Program-made: the position numbers and the translations under genes
In this document: in pieces, positions 12,838-24,643 of the stretch
How positions within the stretch are numbered: position 1 is the stretch's first letter
Layout: every line of letters starts with the position of its first letter
NCBI RefSeq assembly: GCF_900104355.1
Contig: NZ_FNIY01000017.1
Coordinates: 1 to 41,211, forward strand
Direction: 5' to 3'
Length of the DNA stretch: 41,211 bases
Source: Phyllobacterium sp. OV277
GTDB lineage: Bacteria; Pseudomonadota; Alphaproteobacteria; Rhizobiales; Rhizobiaceae
The notes under the pieces: model-generated
Told to the model about the DNA's origin: nothing
What the model saw: only the letters and a program-made list of their open reading frames with translations
The model's database searches: none

Positions 12838-12926
12838 TTGTGCCAATTCAGCATGGAAGTTCTGCCGTGTCAAATGCCCAGCTGCAATTTTTTGCACAGG
12901 AAGATCGAGACACCGCTCGATGAAAG

Positions 12927-12961
12927 ATGATCGCAGCCCCGATATTTAGGGCTGCGATCAT
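12927..12961 (-). terminator. Terminator-like hairpin after the acetolactate synthase gene
   Basis: A perfect 13-bp inverted repeat (ATGATCGCAGCCC and GGGCTGCGATCAT) with a 9-nt loop, starting about 12 bases after the acetolactate synthase stop. The following bases are only weakly T-rich (CTTTC), so it may act as terminator or as mRNA stabiliser. It separates the ilv gene from the GntR operon. Confidence 0.6.
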
Positions 12962-12972
12962 TCCTTCGACTA

Positions 12973-14769
12973 TTAAAGCAGGCCGCGACTGTCGATATCT
13001 ATTGGTCCCCGGAATGAAACGTCTGTGATTTCATCAGGCAAAAACATCTCATTATGTCCCCGACCGGGCCGGATCATCGGGAAACAATTGGCGAGCTTGG
13101 CCACCCGGCAATCGAACAGCACCGGCCGCTTGACCTCGATCATCTCCCCAATAGCATCGTCAAGCTCATCAGGTCTGTCACACCGGATACCCACCGCTCC
13201 AAAAGCCTCGGCGATTTTGACAAAGTCTGGCAGGGCTTTCGAGTAGGAGTGCGCCAGCCGGTTTTCGTGCACCATCTCCTGCGATTGCCGAACCAATCCC
13301 ATGTATTCATTGTTCAATATGAACACCTTGATGGGTGCATCATATTGGATAGCCGTCGACAATTCTTTCATGGTCATCTGTACGGAAGCATCACCGGCAA
13401 TATCGATCACGAGGCTCGTCGGATGGGCGATCTGCACCCCGATTGCAGCCGGCAAGCCATATCCCATGGTGCCAAGCCCGCCCGATGTCATCCAGCGATT
13501 AGGGCTTTCAATGCCATAATACTGGGCAGCCCACATCTGGTGTTGCCCCACCTCCGTGGTCACATAGGTATCGCGATCCTTGGTCAGTTCATAAAGGCGC
13601 TCAAGCGCGTATTGCGGCATGATGACCGTGCTGCTCATCTCATAGGAAAACGAGTTACGTGCCCGCCACTGATTGATCTTTTCCCACCACTTCTGCAACC
13701 GCCCGCGATCTGGCTTTATGGGCAGAGCCCGCCAAAGACTGACCATCTTCCCCAAAACCTGTGCCACATCGCCTTGAATGGAAATGTCGGCGGTAATAAT
13801 CTTGTTCAGGGACGAAGGATCAATATCGATATGGATTTTCTTGGAATTCGGCGAGAACCCATCAACGCGTGACGTCACCCGATCATCGAACCGCGCGCCG
13901 ATACACACCATGACATCGCATTCGTGCATCGCCATATTCGCTTCATATGAGCCATGCAGACCGAGCATTTTCAACCAGTTTGCCCCAGACGCCGGATATG
14001 CGCCGAGTCCCATAAGAGTCGAGGTGATGGGAAACCCTGTCAGTTCGACAAACTCACGCAATAATCTTGATGCACCGGGTCCAGAGCCGATCACGCCGCC
14101 ACCCGTATAAATGATGGGGCTGCGTGCACGCGCCAGAAGTTCCAGCGCTGCTTCTATTTGCTTGTCATTGCCAATGACATTCGGCTGATAACTCTTTCTT
14201 TCGTCAATATTGGAAGGAGCAGCATAATAGCCGTGCGCGAGCAAAATATCCTTTGGCATGTCAACCAGAACGGGCCCGGGACGTCCTGACCGTGCAATGC
14301 GAAAAGCTTCATGTATCGTTGCGGCAAGATCGTTCACATCAGCGACGAGCCAGTTGTGCTTTGTGCATGGCCGCGTGATGCCAACCGTATCGCACTCCTG
14401 AAAAGCATCCGTGCCTATAAGCGATGTGGCCACCTGACCCGACAGGCACACGATGGGTATTGAATCCATCAAGGCATCCTGCAGCGGTGTCACAGAATTG
14501 GTAACGCCCGGCCCTGATGTCACCAGCATAACGCCAACCTTGCCGGTGGACCGGGCATAGCCTTCAGCAGCGTGGCCTGCGCCCTGTTCATGACGAACCA
14601 GAATGTGCCTGATATCGCTCTGCTGGAAAATCTCGTCGTAGATCGGGAGCACCGCCGCCCCCGGATAGCCAAAGATGTGCTCAACGCCGTTGTCGCGCAG
14701 CGCCTGCAGAACAATCTCTGCCCCGGTCATGGGAATGCGTATTGATGTAGTGATGTCATTGCCTGTCAT
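12973..14769 (-). CDS. ilvB: Acetolactate synthase, large (catalytic) subunit
   Basis: A 598-aa TPP-dependent enzyme that condenses two pyruvates (or pyruvate and 2-oxobutyrate), the first step of Val/Leu/Ile synthesis. The catalytic Glu61 is in [16 protein letters not shown]. The TPP pyrimidine/FAD domains and a C-terminal [12 protein letters not shown]...NN TPP-Mg motif are present, with Ala where GDGS is commoner. Full length for the family. AAGGAA precedes the ATG. Expression is preceded by a transcription attenuator with a branched-chain leader peptide, which ties the gene to biosynthesis rather than catabolism. The small regulatory subunit (ilvN/ilvH) is not adjacent and would have to be supplied from elsewhere. 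Confidence 0.92.
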
Positions 14770-14834
14770 GGCAGTTCCTTATTGCAATGGTTGAAGACAG
14801 AGGGTTTTGACGGGGCAGCACCAAAATCTGGGCG

Positions 14835-14859
14835 AAAAAAAAGGCCCCGTCAGGAGCCT
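14835..14859 (-). terminator. Attenuator terminator of the ilv leader
   Basis: On the minus strand AGGCTCC, loop TGAC, GGGGCCT (one T-G wobble) is followed by a run of eight T. It lies 32 bases after the leader-peptide stop and 65 bases before the acetolactate synthase ATG, the standard place for an amino-acid attenuator. Confidence 0.85.
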
Positions 14860-14948
14860 GTTTGCCGCGCATGGGTGCTAACGCCGGATGGTTAAACCAT
14901 CCTGCCCATGCGCGTTCCCACTACGATCAAAACCATTGCAATTTTCAT
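14860..14948 (-). promoter_or_regulatory. ilv attenuator RNA: pause hairpins and alternative pairing
   Basis: Between the leader start and the terminator the transcript contains nested pairings: GCGCAUGGG with CCCAUGCGC, enclosing GGAUGG with CCAUCC around the leader stop codon. A competing helix is possible between CGUUAG and CUGACG (with CC/GG extension), which would tie up the 3' half of the terminator. A ribosome stalled on the Val/Leu/Ile codons would cover the first arm and favour the competing helix, allowing read-through when branched-chain aminoacyl-tRNA is scarce. The helices are read from the sequence; the switching is inference. Confidence 0.7.
14892..14948 (-). CDS. ilvL: ilv leader peptide (attenuation), 18 codons
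   Basis: The reading is MKIAMVLIVVGTRMGRMV followed by TAA. Codons 6-10 are Val-Leu-Ile-Val-Val, with another Ile at 3 and Val at 18: control codons for branched-chain aminoacyl-tRNA supply. There is no Shine-Dalgarno sequence; instead a promoter -10 box ends seven bases before the ATG, so the transcript should begin at or within a base or two of the AUG. Leaderless leader peptides are known for the trp attenuator of Sinorhizobium. Confidence 0.8.
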   Translation of the reverse strand: MKIAMVLIVVGTRMGRMV

Positions 14949-14955
14949 GGCTATT

Positions 14956-14984
14956 TTTGTAACCGCGAACGCGCGGGGCGTCAA
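14956..14984 (-). promoter_or_regulatory. Promoter of the attenuated ilv transcript
   Basis: Minus strand: TTGACG (14984-14979), exactly 17 bases, TACAAA (14961-14956). The predicted transcription start is 14949-14948, at the leader ATG. Between here and the GntR promoter at 15208 nothing else is recognised. Confidence 0.7.
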
Positions 14985-15207
14985 TGCCGCCTAACGCGAG
15001 GTCGGCGCTACGCCAATCAAATGAAACCCTTGACCGCCGAGAGACCTGTTTGCAACCGAACATGCGAACAGACCTTCTGCCCGGCCTTCCTTGCTGAGCC
15101 TGCGCTAAATACAGGCTTCGGCGCGCGTCTATGCTGAATATCCCTTCTCTCCTGCCAATGTTTTCCGGGTGCCGCGCCTCTCCTGTGCAAAACCAAATCG
15201 AAGTCGC

Positions 15208-20730: not shown

Positions 20731-22074
20731 CTACATTCTTCCCTCGCCATTCAATGCCTTGATAACCGGAACAACTGAATACTGGCCAATTTCAGCCCTG
20801 TCGGTCAGCGCCCGCAAATACCCGCCCGGCGAGCGGATTTCCCCTGCGCGCTCCAGTATGGCGGCAATGGTGATCGAGGCGTTTATGTCGCCCATGGTGT
20901 CACGCGCCCTTTCCCATGCATCTGGCGAAATACCCAGCATCGAGCGGACCAAAGCCGCCGTTTGCATCAGATCGCGCCAATCTGCGATATCATTGCGGGC
21001 ATAATCGCGAATTTGCGGGCAGGCTTCCAGCACCGCGCCCAAAGGCAATGCGGACGTTTTTATCTGTCCCGCCGACAACTCACCCGGCATTGCATCCCGG
21101 TGCTGTCCGCGTTTCAGTTTGGCATCCAGCAATCTCTGGCGCATTTTCAACATTGCCTGGCTGCGCCCGGCTTCCGTCTTGTTCCTTCCGGATTCAGCAT
21201 TCCCCTTATCTTCAGTTTCAGGCGCTGCCGTTCGTTTCTGGCTTTTTTCGGAAGCCCTTTCAAAATGGGAGTCTATATTTGAATTCTGTATATGGTGCTC
21301 AAAAGAAGAGTCAGTGCCGCTCATTTCTTCGTTTGAAAGAGTGTCGAGATAGGCTTTTTCAACCTTGCTGCGCAGGATGGCAAGCGCGTCACGCCTTACC
21401 TTCATCGTCTCAAGTGGCAGGTGCCTGCTCACACGCCCCGAAAGGTGCGCCAGTTCATCAGCATAGGCTTCCCAATCACCGGAGCGTTCTTCGCTGAGAC
21501 CTGCATCAATGGTCTTGGAAACGTCGCGCAAATGAATGGTGATTTCGCTGCGAACGCGATGAATAGCCCGCTCCATATCGCGCGCCGCGGCTGCATGCTC
21601 ACTGATTTCATCAACGCGCAGCGCCAACGGTGACAGATCAAAACCGAATGCATGTTCGATTTCTCCACCCTCGCCGCGCCTGGCATAGCGTTTGCCATTC
21701 GGGCTATCGCGCCGGATGATTAATCCCGCTTCCACAAGCGCCGCAAGATGCCTGCGAATAGTCGCAGACGACATGCCGCGCGTGCGCATGGACAGTTCCG
21801 CATTGGATGGGAACACCACCACAGGCGTACTTCCGTCCAACAGGGTCTCGGGATAGAAGCTCAGAAGGGCTTCCAGCACGGCAATCGTGCGATCCGAAAG
21901 GAAGAAAGCCGCGCGCGCCTGCGTTAATTCACGCAAAAGCGCCCATTTTTCCGGGTGATTGGCGTCAGTACCCGCCAGTTTTTCACGGGCACGCGCTGTC
22001 TTTTCCTGCACTGCGAACATGGCATGCGACAGCGATCGCCCGCCAAATGGCGTCGTTGCAAAACGATCAGTCAT
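20731..22074 (-). CDS. repC: Replication initiator RepC of a repABC replicon
   Basis: A protein of about 447 aa, the initiator that is needed and usually sufficient for replication of repABC replicons. The N-terminal FGGRSLSHAMFAVQEK and the winged-helix segment (FPSNAELSMRTRGMSSATIRRHLAALVEAGLIIRRDSPNGKRYARR) are diagnostic. The ATG at 22074 was preferred because GAGG lies about nine bases upstream; the frame extends to a TTG at 22098. It follows repB after a 206-bp gap holding the antisense RNA locus. Confidence 0.93.
   Translation of the reverse strand: MTDRFATTPFGGRSLSHAMFAVQEKTARAREKLAGTDANHPEKWALLRELTQARAAFFLSDRTIAVLEALLSFYPETLLDGSTPVVVFPSNAELSMRTRGMSSATIRRHLAALVEAGLIIRRDSPNGKRYARRGEGGEIEHAFGFDLSPLALRVDEISEHAAAARDMERAIHRVRSEITIHLRDVSKTIDAGLSEERSGDWEAYADELAHLSGRVSRHLPLETMKVRRDALAILRSKVEKAYLDTLSNEEMSGTDSSFEHHIQNSNIDSHFERASEKSQKRTAAPETEDKGNAESGRNKTEAGRSQAMLKMRQRLLDAKLKRGQHRDAMPGELSAGQIKTSALPLGAVLEACPQIRDYARNDIADWRDLMQTAALVRSMLGISPDAWERARDTMGDINASITIAAILERAGEIRSPGGYLRALTDRAEIGQYSVVPVIKALNGEGRM
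21241..21360. other. Possible replication origin (AT-richer stretch inside repC)
   Basis: In studied repABC replicons oriV lies inside repC in an AT-rich segment. The stretch around 21241-21360 is visibly richer in A/T than the rest of the gene (for example TCTATATTTGAATTC at 21271-21285) and encodes a low-complexity hydrophilic linker. Placement is inference; no defined RepC site was identified. Confidence 0.35.
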
Positions 22075-22129
22075 TTTCTCTACCTCAAATTGAGGCAAGG
22101 GAAAGGTGTTGCCGGAACGCGTCCGACTC

Positions 22130-22158
22130 TTGACAAGTCAGGTAGGAAGTGATTCTCT
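22130..22158 (+). promoter_or_regulatory. Promoter candidate of the antisense ctRNA
   Basis: TTGACA (22130-22135) on the plus strand, opposite to repABC. The -10 element is not clear: TTCTCT (22153-22158) at 17 bp, or TCTAAA a little further. The expected start is about 22165. Confidence 0.45.
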
Positions 22159-22164
22159 AAAATT

Positions 22165-22214
22165 GCTACATTGAAGAGGGCTTCCGGGGCGGTAACGTTC
22201 TGGGGGCCTTTTTT
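22165..22214 (+). ncRNA. ctRNA (incompatibility antisense RNA) between repB and repC
   Basis: repABC replicons encode a roughly 50-nt antisense RNA in the repB-repC gap that limits RepC synthesis. Here, on the plus strand, GGCTTCC (22179-22185) pairs with GGGGGCC (22202-22208) around a 16-nt loop and is followed by six T (22209-22214), a Rho-independent terminator that ends the RNA. The 5' end is estimated from the upstream TTGACA box. Position, strand, size and terminator all fit. Confidence 0.72.
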
Positions 22215-22280
22215 CTTGCCGTTGTTCCTTCTCTCTGTTCTTTCCGTTCAACGCTTACACAAAACCAGATTACGCGTAGT

Positions 22281-23351
22281 TCAGGCTTTTCGCTCGCTCC
22301 TGTAGCGCTGCAAAAGCCCGTTTAACTCGCCAGCCACGAAGTCCACGAAGCCTTCGGGAACGGTGTCTGCAAAATCGATTGATCGCTCCTTTTTATTGTT
22401 CAGAAGCTGCGCAATGACATCACCATTGCCGTCGCGTATGTCCCTTGCGGCCACAGGATCAGTCTTTCCTGCCTTTATTGCAGCCGGCTTGTTGAGATCC
22501 AGCAACCGCTCGAACACCGCATCGAAGCGACCATCACTGCCATGCAGTTTGAAATGATCCTGCTGAACCACTTTTTGAGCGGCATCGCGCCCTTCGGGTT
22601 TTCTCAGCATATCAGCCAATTTAACCCAGCGCGGCCGGCCAACCTTGGGTGCGGGCCCGATTGCCTGCAGGATCGGCTTCGGAATGGCGTCCACAACCTG
22701 CAGATAACGGGTCATCTCTGCCTTGTGCAGAGCCAGGGCATCCTGCACTACCGAACGGCTAAAGCCCCGGTCAATCAGATTGCGGGCAAAGAACGCACGC
22801 TCAATGAACGAGAGATCGCGGCGCTCGGCGTTCTCCTTGCCCTGCGCAACCACAAGTTGGGCGTCGCTCAGTTCACGGATAATCGCCTGCACGGGCAGCT
22901 TAAGCTCGGCTGCAGCCCGCAAACGGCGATGGCCATAGGCGGTCTGATAGTAGCCGCGCCGCTCGGGATGCGGACGGACAAGGATCGGCACCTGCTGACC
23001 GTTCAGCTTGATGCTTTCGACCAGCTCCCGGAAGGTCTCATCGAGGCCGAAATTGTGGCTCAGCCGATCTTCGACAAAAGAATACTCAATAAGCTGGGGA
23101 TCAATCTCAATGACCCGTTCCGAACCTTCAAGACTTTCTCTAATCTTACGGGCATCCTCAAGCTCACGCGAGATACCCCCGAGCGAAAGGCCCATAGCTT
23201 TGATAGCGCCAGAAGCAGTTCGCTGCTTTGGTTGCTCTGATAAATTGTCTTCTACCGGAGCCGGATTAACCGGTTTGGGCTCCGGCTGGGGAGCCGTGTC
23301 CACCGTTCCAAAAAGTGCCTTGAGTTGATCCCTGCGGTTCTTGTCAGTCAT
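22281..23351 (-). CDS. repB: Partitioning protein RepB (ParB family)
   Basis: A 356-aa ParB-type protein that binds centromere-like sites and helps segregation of the replicon. The ParB N-domain is at about 80-165, with LVESIKLNGQQVPILVRPHP and the arginine box YGHRRLRAAAEL, followed by a helix-turn-helix region (GFSRSVVQDALALHKAEMTRYLQV) and a RepB C-terminal domain. GAGGTGAGCG precedes the ATG, eight bases after the repA stop, so repA and repB are one operon. Confidence 0.94.
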   Translation of the reverse strand: MTDKNRRDQLKALFGTVDTAPQPEPKPVNPAPVEDNLSEQPKQRTASGAIKAMGLSLGGISRELEDARKIRESLEGSERVIEIDPQLIEYSFVEDRLSHNFGLDETFRELVESIKLNGQQVPILVRPHPERRGYYQTAYGHRRLRAAAELKLPVQAIIRELSDAQLVVAQGKENAERRDLSFIERAFFARNLIDRGFSRSVVQDALALHKAEMTRYLQVVDAIPKPILQAIGPAPKVGRPRWVKLADMLRKPEGRDAAQKVVQQDHFKLHGSDGRFDAVFERLLDLNKPAAIKAGKTDPVAARDIRDGNGDVIAQLLNNKKERSIDFADTVPEGFVDFVAGELNGLLQRYRSERKA

Positions 23352-23359
23352 CGCTCACC

Positions 23360-24643
23360 TCACACAGGCCGGTTCCAGGCCTTGAAGATCAGGCTCTGGA
23401 TTTCAGCGTTGACGGAGGACAGCGATTCAATCGCCCGGTCATAGGTGGCCCGGGTGAAACTGTCGCGCGAGACTTCGTAAAGTGTCTGCTTGGTCAGGCC
23501 CGCATCAGAAAAGGCGGTTGATTTGACAACGGCCGATGTGAGAACCCGATCACCGAACAGCGAGCGCAGGAAGCCGGCAATCTGCTGCTGTGGCGCATCA
23601 TTCGGCTCGAAGCGGGTAATCAGATAGCGCATGAAATCGAAATTGAGTTCACCGCCTGCTTCCCGCACAACGGCCAGAAGATCGGCTGTCATGAACAGAA
23701 ACTGGCTCATGGATGCCACATCAAGCATCTGCGGATGCACGGTGACGAGAACCGATGTCGCGGCGCAAAGTGCAGAAAGCGTCAAAAAGCCCAGCTGCGG
23801 CGGGCAATCGATGACGACCACATCATAATCATCCGATATTGTATCGAGCGCTGCCTGAACGCGGGCAAAGAAAAGCTGCTGTTCGATGCTCTGCTGTGCG
23901 CCATGCTGGCGATCAGCAAGCATTTGCGGCGTGGTATGCTCGAATTCCTGCAATTCCAGATTGCCCGGAATAAGATCAAGGCCGTCAAAATAAGTCTTAC
24001 GGATGATATCGCGCATCAACCGCCGTTCACCATCATAGCGAATGGCACCGTAGAGCGTGTCATTGCCGGTCAGATCGAGTTCCGGCTGATAGCCAAATAA
24101 GGCTGACATGGAAGCCTGTGGATCAAGATCAACCGCAAGCACGCGAAAACCTGCCATGGCCAGATGTTGGGCGAGGTGTGCACTCGTGGTGGTCTTGCCG
24201 GAGCCGCCTTTAAAGTTGGTGACGGCAATCACCTGCATATGTTCATTGGCAGAGGGATCGCGATGCGGCAGATAGGTTTTCGCCTTTGGTCCGCCAGCAT
24301 CAGCAAGATGATGGCGCAGCGCATTGATTTCCGCGAGCGAATAGAGCCGGCGGCCATTTGCCCCGGTTTCAGGCTGCGGTCCCTCTCCTGCAATGGAAAG
24401 CTGGCGCAAATAACCGTCTGAAACTCCAATGAGCTTGGCAGCCTCGCCACTTGTGAATTTGCGTAGTGTTTTTTGCGCCGTCGGTGGAAACAACCGGTTA
24501 CGCATTGCCTGCAGCTGTGCCGACAGCATTTCTGCGTCAGCAGCAATAGCCCGATCAGCGGTCAAGGCAGCGGATGGCTGTGGTACAGCCGCAATTTGCG
24601 CACCATCCGTTTTTGTTGTCTGTACCGCGTTCATCATAGTCAC
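23360..24643 (-). CDS. repA: Partitioning ATPase RepA (ParA family)
   Basis: A 427-aa ParA-type ATPase. An N-terminal MerR-like helix-turn-helix (FTSGEAAKLIGVSDGYLRQL, about 63-82; YSLAEINALR) allows autorepression of repABC. The deviant Walker A is KGGSGKTT at 145-152, and VDLDPQASMSALFG and VIDCPPQLGF form the Walker A' and B regions. The start is a GTG at 24643 with AGGA about seven bases ahead; an in-frame ATG follows six bases later. Confidence 0.94.
   Translation of the reverse strand: MTMMNAVQTTKTDGAQIAAVPQPSAALTADRAIAADAEMLSAQLQAMRNRLFPPTAQKTLRKFTSGEAAKLIGVSDGYLRQLSIAGEGPQPETGANGRRLYSLAEINALRHHLADAGGPKAKTYLPHRDPSANEHMQVIAVTNFKGGSGKTTTSAHLAQHLAMAGFRVLAVDLDPQASMSALFGYQPELDLTGNDTLYGAIRYDGERRLMRDIIRKTYFDGLDLIPGNLELQEFEHTTPQMLADRQHGAQQSIEQQLFFARVQAALDTISDDYDVVVIDCPPQLGFLTLSALCAATSVLVTVHPQMLDVASMSQFLFMTADLLAVVREAGGELNFDFMRYLITRFEPNDAPQQQIAGFLRSLFGDRVLTSAVVKSTAFSDAGLTKQTLYEVSRDSFTRATYDRAIESLSSVNAEIQSLIFKAWNRPV

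Follow-up and report, generated by a model that had tools for sequence, protein, structure and literature searches.

A predicted leaderless attenuator of the RF02502 (Atu_C8) family before the gene of a divergent acetolactate synthase on a repABC replicon of Phyllobacterium sp. OV277

Introduction

What can a small element consisting of a branched-chain leader, nested hairpins and a terminator do before a second acetolactate synthase (ALS) gene on a bacterial replicon, and how is its leader peptide read? This question is raised by a locus of Phyllobacterium sp. OV277, studied here in a stretch of 41,211 nucleotides (contig NZ_FNIY01000017.1; C14 among the 26 contigs of the draft genome, which comprises 5.33 Mb), hereafter called the window. 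A preliminary description of this DNA had proposed a leaderless leader peptide with an attenuator controlling ALS on a repABC replicon.

The element and its replicon

The element is located on the minus strand of the window, as read in the letters, and all its described parts, namely the branched-chain leader, the promoter, the nested hairpins and the terminator with eight T, are present there (Table 1). The leader run in the window is Val-Leu-Ile-Val-Val, and the second half of the 18-codon leader frame doubles as the 5' part of the nested hairpins. The Rfam match (E 1.6e-25, the window being the search space) belongs to a family annotated as "Rhizobiales sRNA Atu_C8", type 'Gene; sRNA'. Folding of the 122-nt element gave a z of -2.74, with 2/200 shuffles equally good. 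The described element is confirmed to be real, beyond chance. The repABC nature of the replicon is borne out by Pfam matches to RP-C (20731-22098), RepB (22281-23351) and a ParA-type ATPase (23360-24643), all on the minus strand.

Table 1. Features of the locus in the window
Feature	Positions	Strand	Remarks
-35 box TTGACG	14984-14979	minus	read in sequence; TTGAC placement shared at 155/156 same-family sites
-10 box TACAAA	14961-14956	minus	17-base spacer to -35; 7 bases to leader ATG
Leader frame MKIAMVLIVVGTRMGRMV*	14948-14892	minus	18 codons and stop, without Shine-Dalgarno; predicted RNA start at or near first base
Rfam RF02502 "Atu_C8" match	14946-14826	minus	117.5 bits, cut-off 50, model positions 1-122 of 122
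Outer stem	14914-14905 with 14875-14866	minus	encloses inner hairpin and small GC hairpin
Inner hairpin	14902-14896 with 14892-14886	minus	leader stop codon in loop and first pair
Intrinsic terminator	14859-14835	minus	7-pair GC-rich hairpin 14859-14842 and eight T 14842-14835
ALS-B (P0001, 598 aa)	12973-14769	minus	divergent ALS large subunit, no ilvH adjoining
Variable slot (promoter, attenuator, ALS-B)	12903-15085	minus	flanks 94% to plasmid pT1293a, content different
repABC genes	20731-24643	minus	Pfam

Start of the leader RNA

Of the 156 same-family sites, 155 have a TTGAC box at a distance of 34-38 bases from the leader ATG (37 bases in 102 of them), against 1/156 for downstream random ATGs taken as a control and 198/15,600 for shuffled upstream regions. 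At the single miss (L017) the script chose an upstream ATG, and the box is correctly placed before the second ATG. SD-like 4-mers precede only 3/156 same-family leaders, compared with 15/156 control ATGs. As judged from the sequences, the proposed leaderless start of the leader RNA is therefore well supported.

The opposite explanation, in which the transcript begins farther upstream and has an ordinary 5' end, poor in SD sequences, from which the leader is translated, would agree with the weakness of the -10 boxes and with the leaders of other families, where SD-like 4-mers occur at 13/22 sites and the TTGAC box at only 6/22. In view of the regular placement of the box in the same family and its rarity in both controls, we regard such an upstream start as very unlikely. 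The best -10 matches are modest (2-5 of 6 bases) and end 5-11 bases before the ATG (7 in the window), so that an RNA start a few bases off the AUG, instead of exactly there, is possible. Since more than half of the leaders of other families have an SD-like 4-mer and most lack the box, leaderlessness seems to be peculiar to this family, where it would have superseded an SD-led leader. If the RNA is truly leaderless, the attenuation of an essential pathway hinges on ribosomes that initiate where the RNA begins, without any leader in front.

Leader codons and RNA structure

Runs of 3-7 Ile/Leu/Val codons are found in the leader at 156/156 same-family sites; a run of three was the condition by which the script selected a leader, and runs of four or more are present in 153/156. 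In the other frames runs of three or more are rare (6/156 in +1, 0/156 in +2), and shuffling of the codon order within leaders reached the leader's own run length in 2,337/31,200 trials. The pattern [ILV][ILV][VI]V fits 148/156 leaders, the remaining eight having shorter or shifted runs. The valine at the fourth place of these 148 is spelled in different ways (GTG 77, GTA 50, GTC 20, GTT 1), which points to selection on the leader peptide. The proposed branched-chain control codons before ALS are thus conserved in relatives.

Structural conservation was studied in 44 same-family sequences of a set of 61 dereplicated ones, the 17 sequences of other families being left out. For 26 pairs, 95.1% of cells were standard pairs, with a shuffled mean of 90.9% (0/500 as high) and 34-51% for structures slid along the alignment; the terminator and the nested stems of the preliminary description are conserved to this extent. 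Two-sided changes were counted in 62 cells of the 44 sequences, with a shuffled mean of 20.7 (0/500 as high). They are located in 5/7 pairs of the inner stem and 2/10 pairs of the outer stem. The terminator stem is paired in 97.7% of cells and has zero two-sided changes; it is the inner stem that shows compensatory changes in relatives. Further pair types were not above the shuffles (406/500 as high), and the two stems lack their outermost pairs in 23 and 12 of the 44 sequences. A tree-based pair scan of 169 distinct sequences (8,385 column pairs), which provides weak evidence in either direction, placed three inner-stem pairs at the top (E 0.07, 0.77 and 1.02) and an outer-stem pair at E 8.4.

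A competing helix had also been suggested between CGUUAG (14883-14878) and CUGACG (14853-14848). This six-base complementarity exists in the window, and it is unconserved: 51.5% of cells are paired compared with 49.8% after shuffling, and 63/500 shuffles were as high. It was rejected as a conserved feature. No alternative antiterminator was found by the folding of 17 sequences or in the pair scan of 169. When the ribosome-covered part was removed from 17 chosen sequences, the terminator persisted in 15 folds, as evaluated by eye, and was replaced in L038 and L183.

Two additional observations concern the region behind the terminator. In several folds, a leader GGGC was seen by eye to be complementary to a GCCC past the T-run. 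A recurring short element, often ATGCCC or ATTGCC, is found right behind the terminator T-run in the window (14834-14830) and in relatives, and in several sequences it could pair with the leader GGGC.

In sum, the attenuator is real and conserved, and it very likely works.

Distribution of RF02502 and its downstream genes

One other RF02502 copy over the cut-off exists in the genome (C15:684057-684176, 102.6 bits), and it precedes the housekeeping ALS gene. In the same-family sample, a match at E <=0.001 was obtained in 240/247 genomes and a match over the cut-off in 234/247; the seven genomes without a match are 1.2-2.0 Mb in size. In an order sample of 297 genomes, at least 13 of them from the same family, the corresponding numbers are 161 and 49, while 0/14 control genomes gave a match at E 0.001 or better.

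The gene directly downstream of RF02502-type sites codes for ALS on the same strand in 169 and for a major facilitator superfamily (MFS) transporter in 9 of 178 sites. These 178 are a non-random, better-scoring share of the matches (about 155 listed) and comprise 127 listed family-sample matches, the window included, 29 further same-family sites and 22 sites from other families; L186 (29.6 bits, below the cut-off), with neither ALS nor MFS downstream, was excluded. In named genomes, RF02502 stands just upstream of ALS at nine of ten loci, including those of Agrobacterium and S. meliloti, the exception being Rhodopseudomonas L256. Nine of these ten were picked from a set of 80 loci, with preference for near relatives, and the tenth is S. 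meliloti L303, where ALS has ilvN behind it. In another family of the order, L191 (G463) and L192 (G500) each have two tandem attenuators about 2.7 kb apart, both directly before an ALS gene.

Because ALS is directly downstream at 169 of the 178 sites and an MFS gene at the other nine, Atu_C8 is in effect an ALS leader. In the reading given here, this RNA family, an sRNA gene according to Rfam, would be an attenuated ALS leader. The idea of an orphan sRNA was rejected, as all nine non-ALS sites precede an MFS gene. A milder version of it, in which Atu_C8 is primarily an independent trans-acting sRNA and its place before ALS is secondary, could refer to the Rfam type and to the attenuator RNA rnTrpL of S. 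meliloti, which acts in trans according to the part of the account consulted here (PMC7298713). It appears improbable in view of the constant downstream genes and the open leader frame with its Ile/Leu/Val codon runs. A trans role of the Atu_C8 RNA besides the cis control may nevertheless exist. With the attenuation reading, a catalogued sRNA family matched in 240/247 sampled family genomes would gain a stated gene, a sensor and a mode of start.

The divergent acetolactate synthase

The product of the downstream gene, P0001 or ALS-B, passes the cut-offs for biosynthetic ALS (1085 vs 974 bits for NF006581; 763.9 vs 538.35 bits for TIGR00118). The genome's other ALS, located on the chromosome, is 72% identical to it and is adjoined by the only ilvH match in the genome. 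It is the chromosomal enzyme that is the ordinary housekeeping ALS, and ALS-B of the window is an unusual paralogue. In a quick tree with some long branches, seven paralogues (the window, G542, G536, G546, G063, G539 and G029) are split from the chromosomal ALS of the genus with an SH-aLRT of 99; G029 comes from another genus, and the other six from the same genus. Two attenuators were found in 8/20 genomes of the genus; six of the eight have ALS-B behind the second one, and the other two have an MFS gene there.

In an alignment of 115 housekeeping ALS, 249 columns are near-invariant (one residue in >=98% of rows). The window ALS-B deviates at 14 of them and the four full-length ALS-B jointly at nine, compared with a median of 0 deviations and a maximum of 17 for housekeeping rows left out singly. 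Three of the nine jointly changed columns correspond to yeast P192, M354 and W586. At these positions, ALS-B of the window has Ala, Leu and Ser, respectively, and the housekeeping rows have Pro in 114/115, Met in 115/115 and Trp in 115/115. At the position of yeast G116, Ala is present in 7/7 ALS-B, and Gly (111/115) or Ser (4/115) in the housekeeping rows. Among ten yeast positions that we take to be sites of resistance to ALS inhibitors, several (116, 192, 354 and 586) are changed in ALS-B. Among the near-invariant columns, changes affect three of the six that hold positions from this list, compared with 6/243 other columns (Fisher p 0.0006), a value that overstates the case because the changes share one history and two of them were known before the test. 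Plant residue numbers of ALS are presumed here to be convertible to the yeast ones. In the available part of a study of the natural ALS inhibitor HB-35018, yeast Pro192 is given as the main resistance site (PMC12947280), and plant Pro-197 and Trp-574 appear in the title of a paper on herbicide resistance (PMC11625580).

The dN/dS values between ALS-B copies are 0.06-0.13 in seven comparisons, with one further comparison saturated and a high dS (0.96-2.36). They speak against ALS-B as a plain pseudogene, a possibility that was rejected with the same reservation about dS and about saturation, which affects one comparison out of ten, and the copies look to be under selection. Shortened ALS-B genes without the middle domain were noticed beside repC in L290 (8926-10083, minus strand) and L291 (8049-9239, minus strand). 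The shortened ALS-B of G063 and G539 are open frames of 366 and 377 aa from MTGAE, with a mutual dN/dS of 0.107.

The slot on the plasmid

The best-matching named plasmid is that of Phyllobacterium sp. T1293, to which 84% of a query of 13.9 kb aligns at 94.4%, followed by those of Phyllobacterium sp. 628 and P. zundukense. The flanks match the plasmid of sp. T1293 at 94% up to position 12902 and from position 15086. In this plasmid, the slot (L300 4103-6793) contains an AraC-type regulator, a hypothetical gene and a LysE-type exporter, and in that of sp. 628 it contains an EAL-domain gene. RF02502 is absent from all three named plasmid stretches compared (sp. T1293, sp. 628 and P. zundukense). 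The neighbourhood of the ALS-B locus is retained in G542 and G536. By comparison with these plasmids, the attenuator and ALS-B of the window occupy a slot between conserved GntR-type genes, and its content changes from plasmid to plasmid.

It might be supposed that the plasmid copy is a worn-out leader with a terminator that is always on, and that there is little expression of ALS-B or the gene is a relic. The changes of ALS-B at near-invariant sites, the copies without the middle domain in G063 and G539, the copy without a loop in G029 and the slot of the three named plasmids, where attenuator and ALS-B are missing, would fit this explanation. On the other hand, the window leader outscores the chromosomal one (117.5 vs 102.6 bits), and the dN/dS values given above, including that of the shortened pair, are low, albeit at a high dS. 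Decay of the plasmid copy is, in our opinion, quite improbable.

Transporter genes behind the leader

The nine sites with the attenuator before an MFS gene are L046, L048, L172, L175, L183, L184, L185, L187 and L189. They are spread over two families, with five genera in the one studied here and two in the other, and their MFS genes are 42-82% identical to each other. The two MFS proteins tested had the best resemblance to TIGR00710 Bcr/CflA, with scores of 163.4 and 173.4 under the cut-off of 200.9. MFS relatives were inspected at 30 loci, and at the nine with the highest similarity (46% or more) the leader is present five times. Two more, L310 and L315, have diverged leaders when inspected by eye, MRAVIFIVGSVRMVA and MNRITPSKGVVVRARRVVR, each with a hairpin and T-run behind it, and the RF02502 scan reported neither; no leader was visible by eye upstream of the MFS gene in L311 and L312.

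The two kinds of cargo allow a speculative proposal, which we consider rather doubtful: a portable lineage of the leaderless attenuator may have come to sense that ALS is blocked and, in response, to induce an inhibitor-insensitive ALS-B or a Bcr/CflA-like efflux pump. Inhibition of ALS from the environment would make Val, Leu and Ile short, the ribosome would stall on the leader, and a cargo restoring growth would be turned on. Two observations speak against a simple resistant enzyme: in G029 the Pro is retained and the VRQW loop is missing, and the copies of G063 and G539 have no middle domain, although this pair, too, has a dN/dS of 0.107. If the proposal is true, a biosynthetic attenuator would serve as an alarm for the inhibition of its own pathway.

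Proposed mechanism

Summarizing the data on the locus, we hold with good confidence that the window contains a second RF02502 copy between a promoter-like sequence and a divergent ALS gene, and that it is a predicted ribosome-dependent attenuator, likely leaderless and sensing Val, Leu and Ile. The position of the promoter, the leader, the stems, the terminator, their conservation and the downstream ALS are read directly in the sequence. We infer leaderless initiation, ribosome stalling and read-through in the following form. Transcription would begin at the leader AUG or a few bases from it, and with such a start the ribosome would have to bind at the extreme 5' end of the transcript. If Val, Leu and Ile are plentiful, the ribosome would reach the stop codon, the nested stems and the terminator would form, and termination would release the RNA known from the catalogue as Atu_C8, with a length of about 114 nt. 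When charged tRNA for Val, Leu or Ile is scarce, the ribosome would stall at Val-Leu-Ile-Val-Val, where it covers the outer stem's 5' arm, and more read-through into ALS-B would result. Several points speak against this model. No conserved antiterminator was found in the folds and the pair scan, the terminator stem lacks two-sided changes, and the -10 boxes are weak, with a varying distance to the ATG. Moreover, RF02502 has as its position 1 the G in the leader ATG of the window, and an RNA starting exactly there would miss a complete AUG. The 5' boundary of RF02502 is inexact, the ATG being up to four positions further inside at other sites.

Comparison with known systems

Attenuation of ilv genes is an already known kind of control. 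New, as far as the literature was searched, are the identity of Atu_C8, the leaderless architecture and the second lineage with a divergent ALS or a Bcr/CflA-like MFS gene as cargo. In this literature RF02502 was found only as a benchmark entry (PMC5913331), and a link between Atu_C8 and ilv was not found in print; it may stand in the A. tumefaciens sRNA survey (Wilms et al. 2012) or in Vitreschak et al. 2004.

According to the accessible parts of the accounts, the Caulobacter ilvBN leader has Ile/Val codons before the ALS genes, and starvation relieves its termination (PMC4117421), and an S. meliloti ilvIH cis-regulatory element is listed before SMc01431 with reference to Vitreschak 2004 (PMC2573895). 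The element of the window resembles both in being a leader control element ahead of ALS genes. In the same parts of these accounts, neither a leaderless start nor Atu_C8 is mentioned, and the window copy differs in being plasmid-borne and located before a paralogue.

As a second, altered ALS, ALS-B is similar to the self-resistant ALS copies of the fungal HB-35018, chlorflavonin and harzianic acid clusters, in so far as excerpts describe them, and the Pro192 position is Ala in ALS-B. Changes at yeast Pro192 are reported in 75% of HB-35018-resistant yeast clones in the part available (PMC12947280). Unlike these fungal enzymes, ALS-B is encoded on a bacterial replicon where no biosynthetic cluster was noticed, and its resistance is only putative.

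With Rfam RF02502 the element shares the RNA family over all 122 model positions, and it is read here as an attenuated ALS leader. A parallel in architecture is trpL of S. meliloti, a leaderless RNA that opens directly on the start codon of its short leader, as stated in the accessible sections of two papers (PMC10117765, PMC7298713). With trpL/rnTrpL/peTrpL the element of the window shares a short leader frame, a terminator and, as predicted, the start at the AUG and the release of a small RNA; unlike in trpL, the leader concerns other amino acids and another gene.
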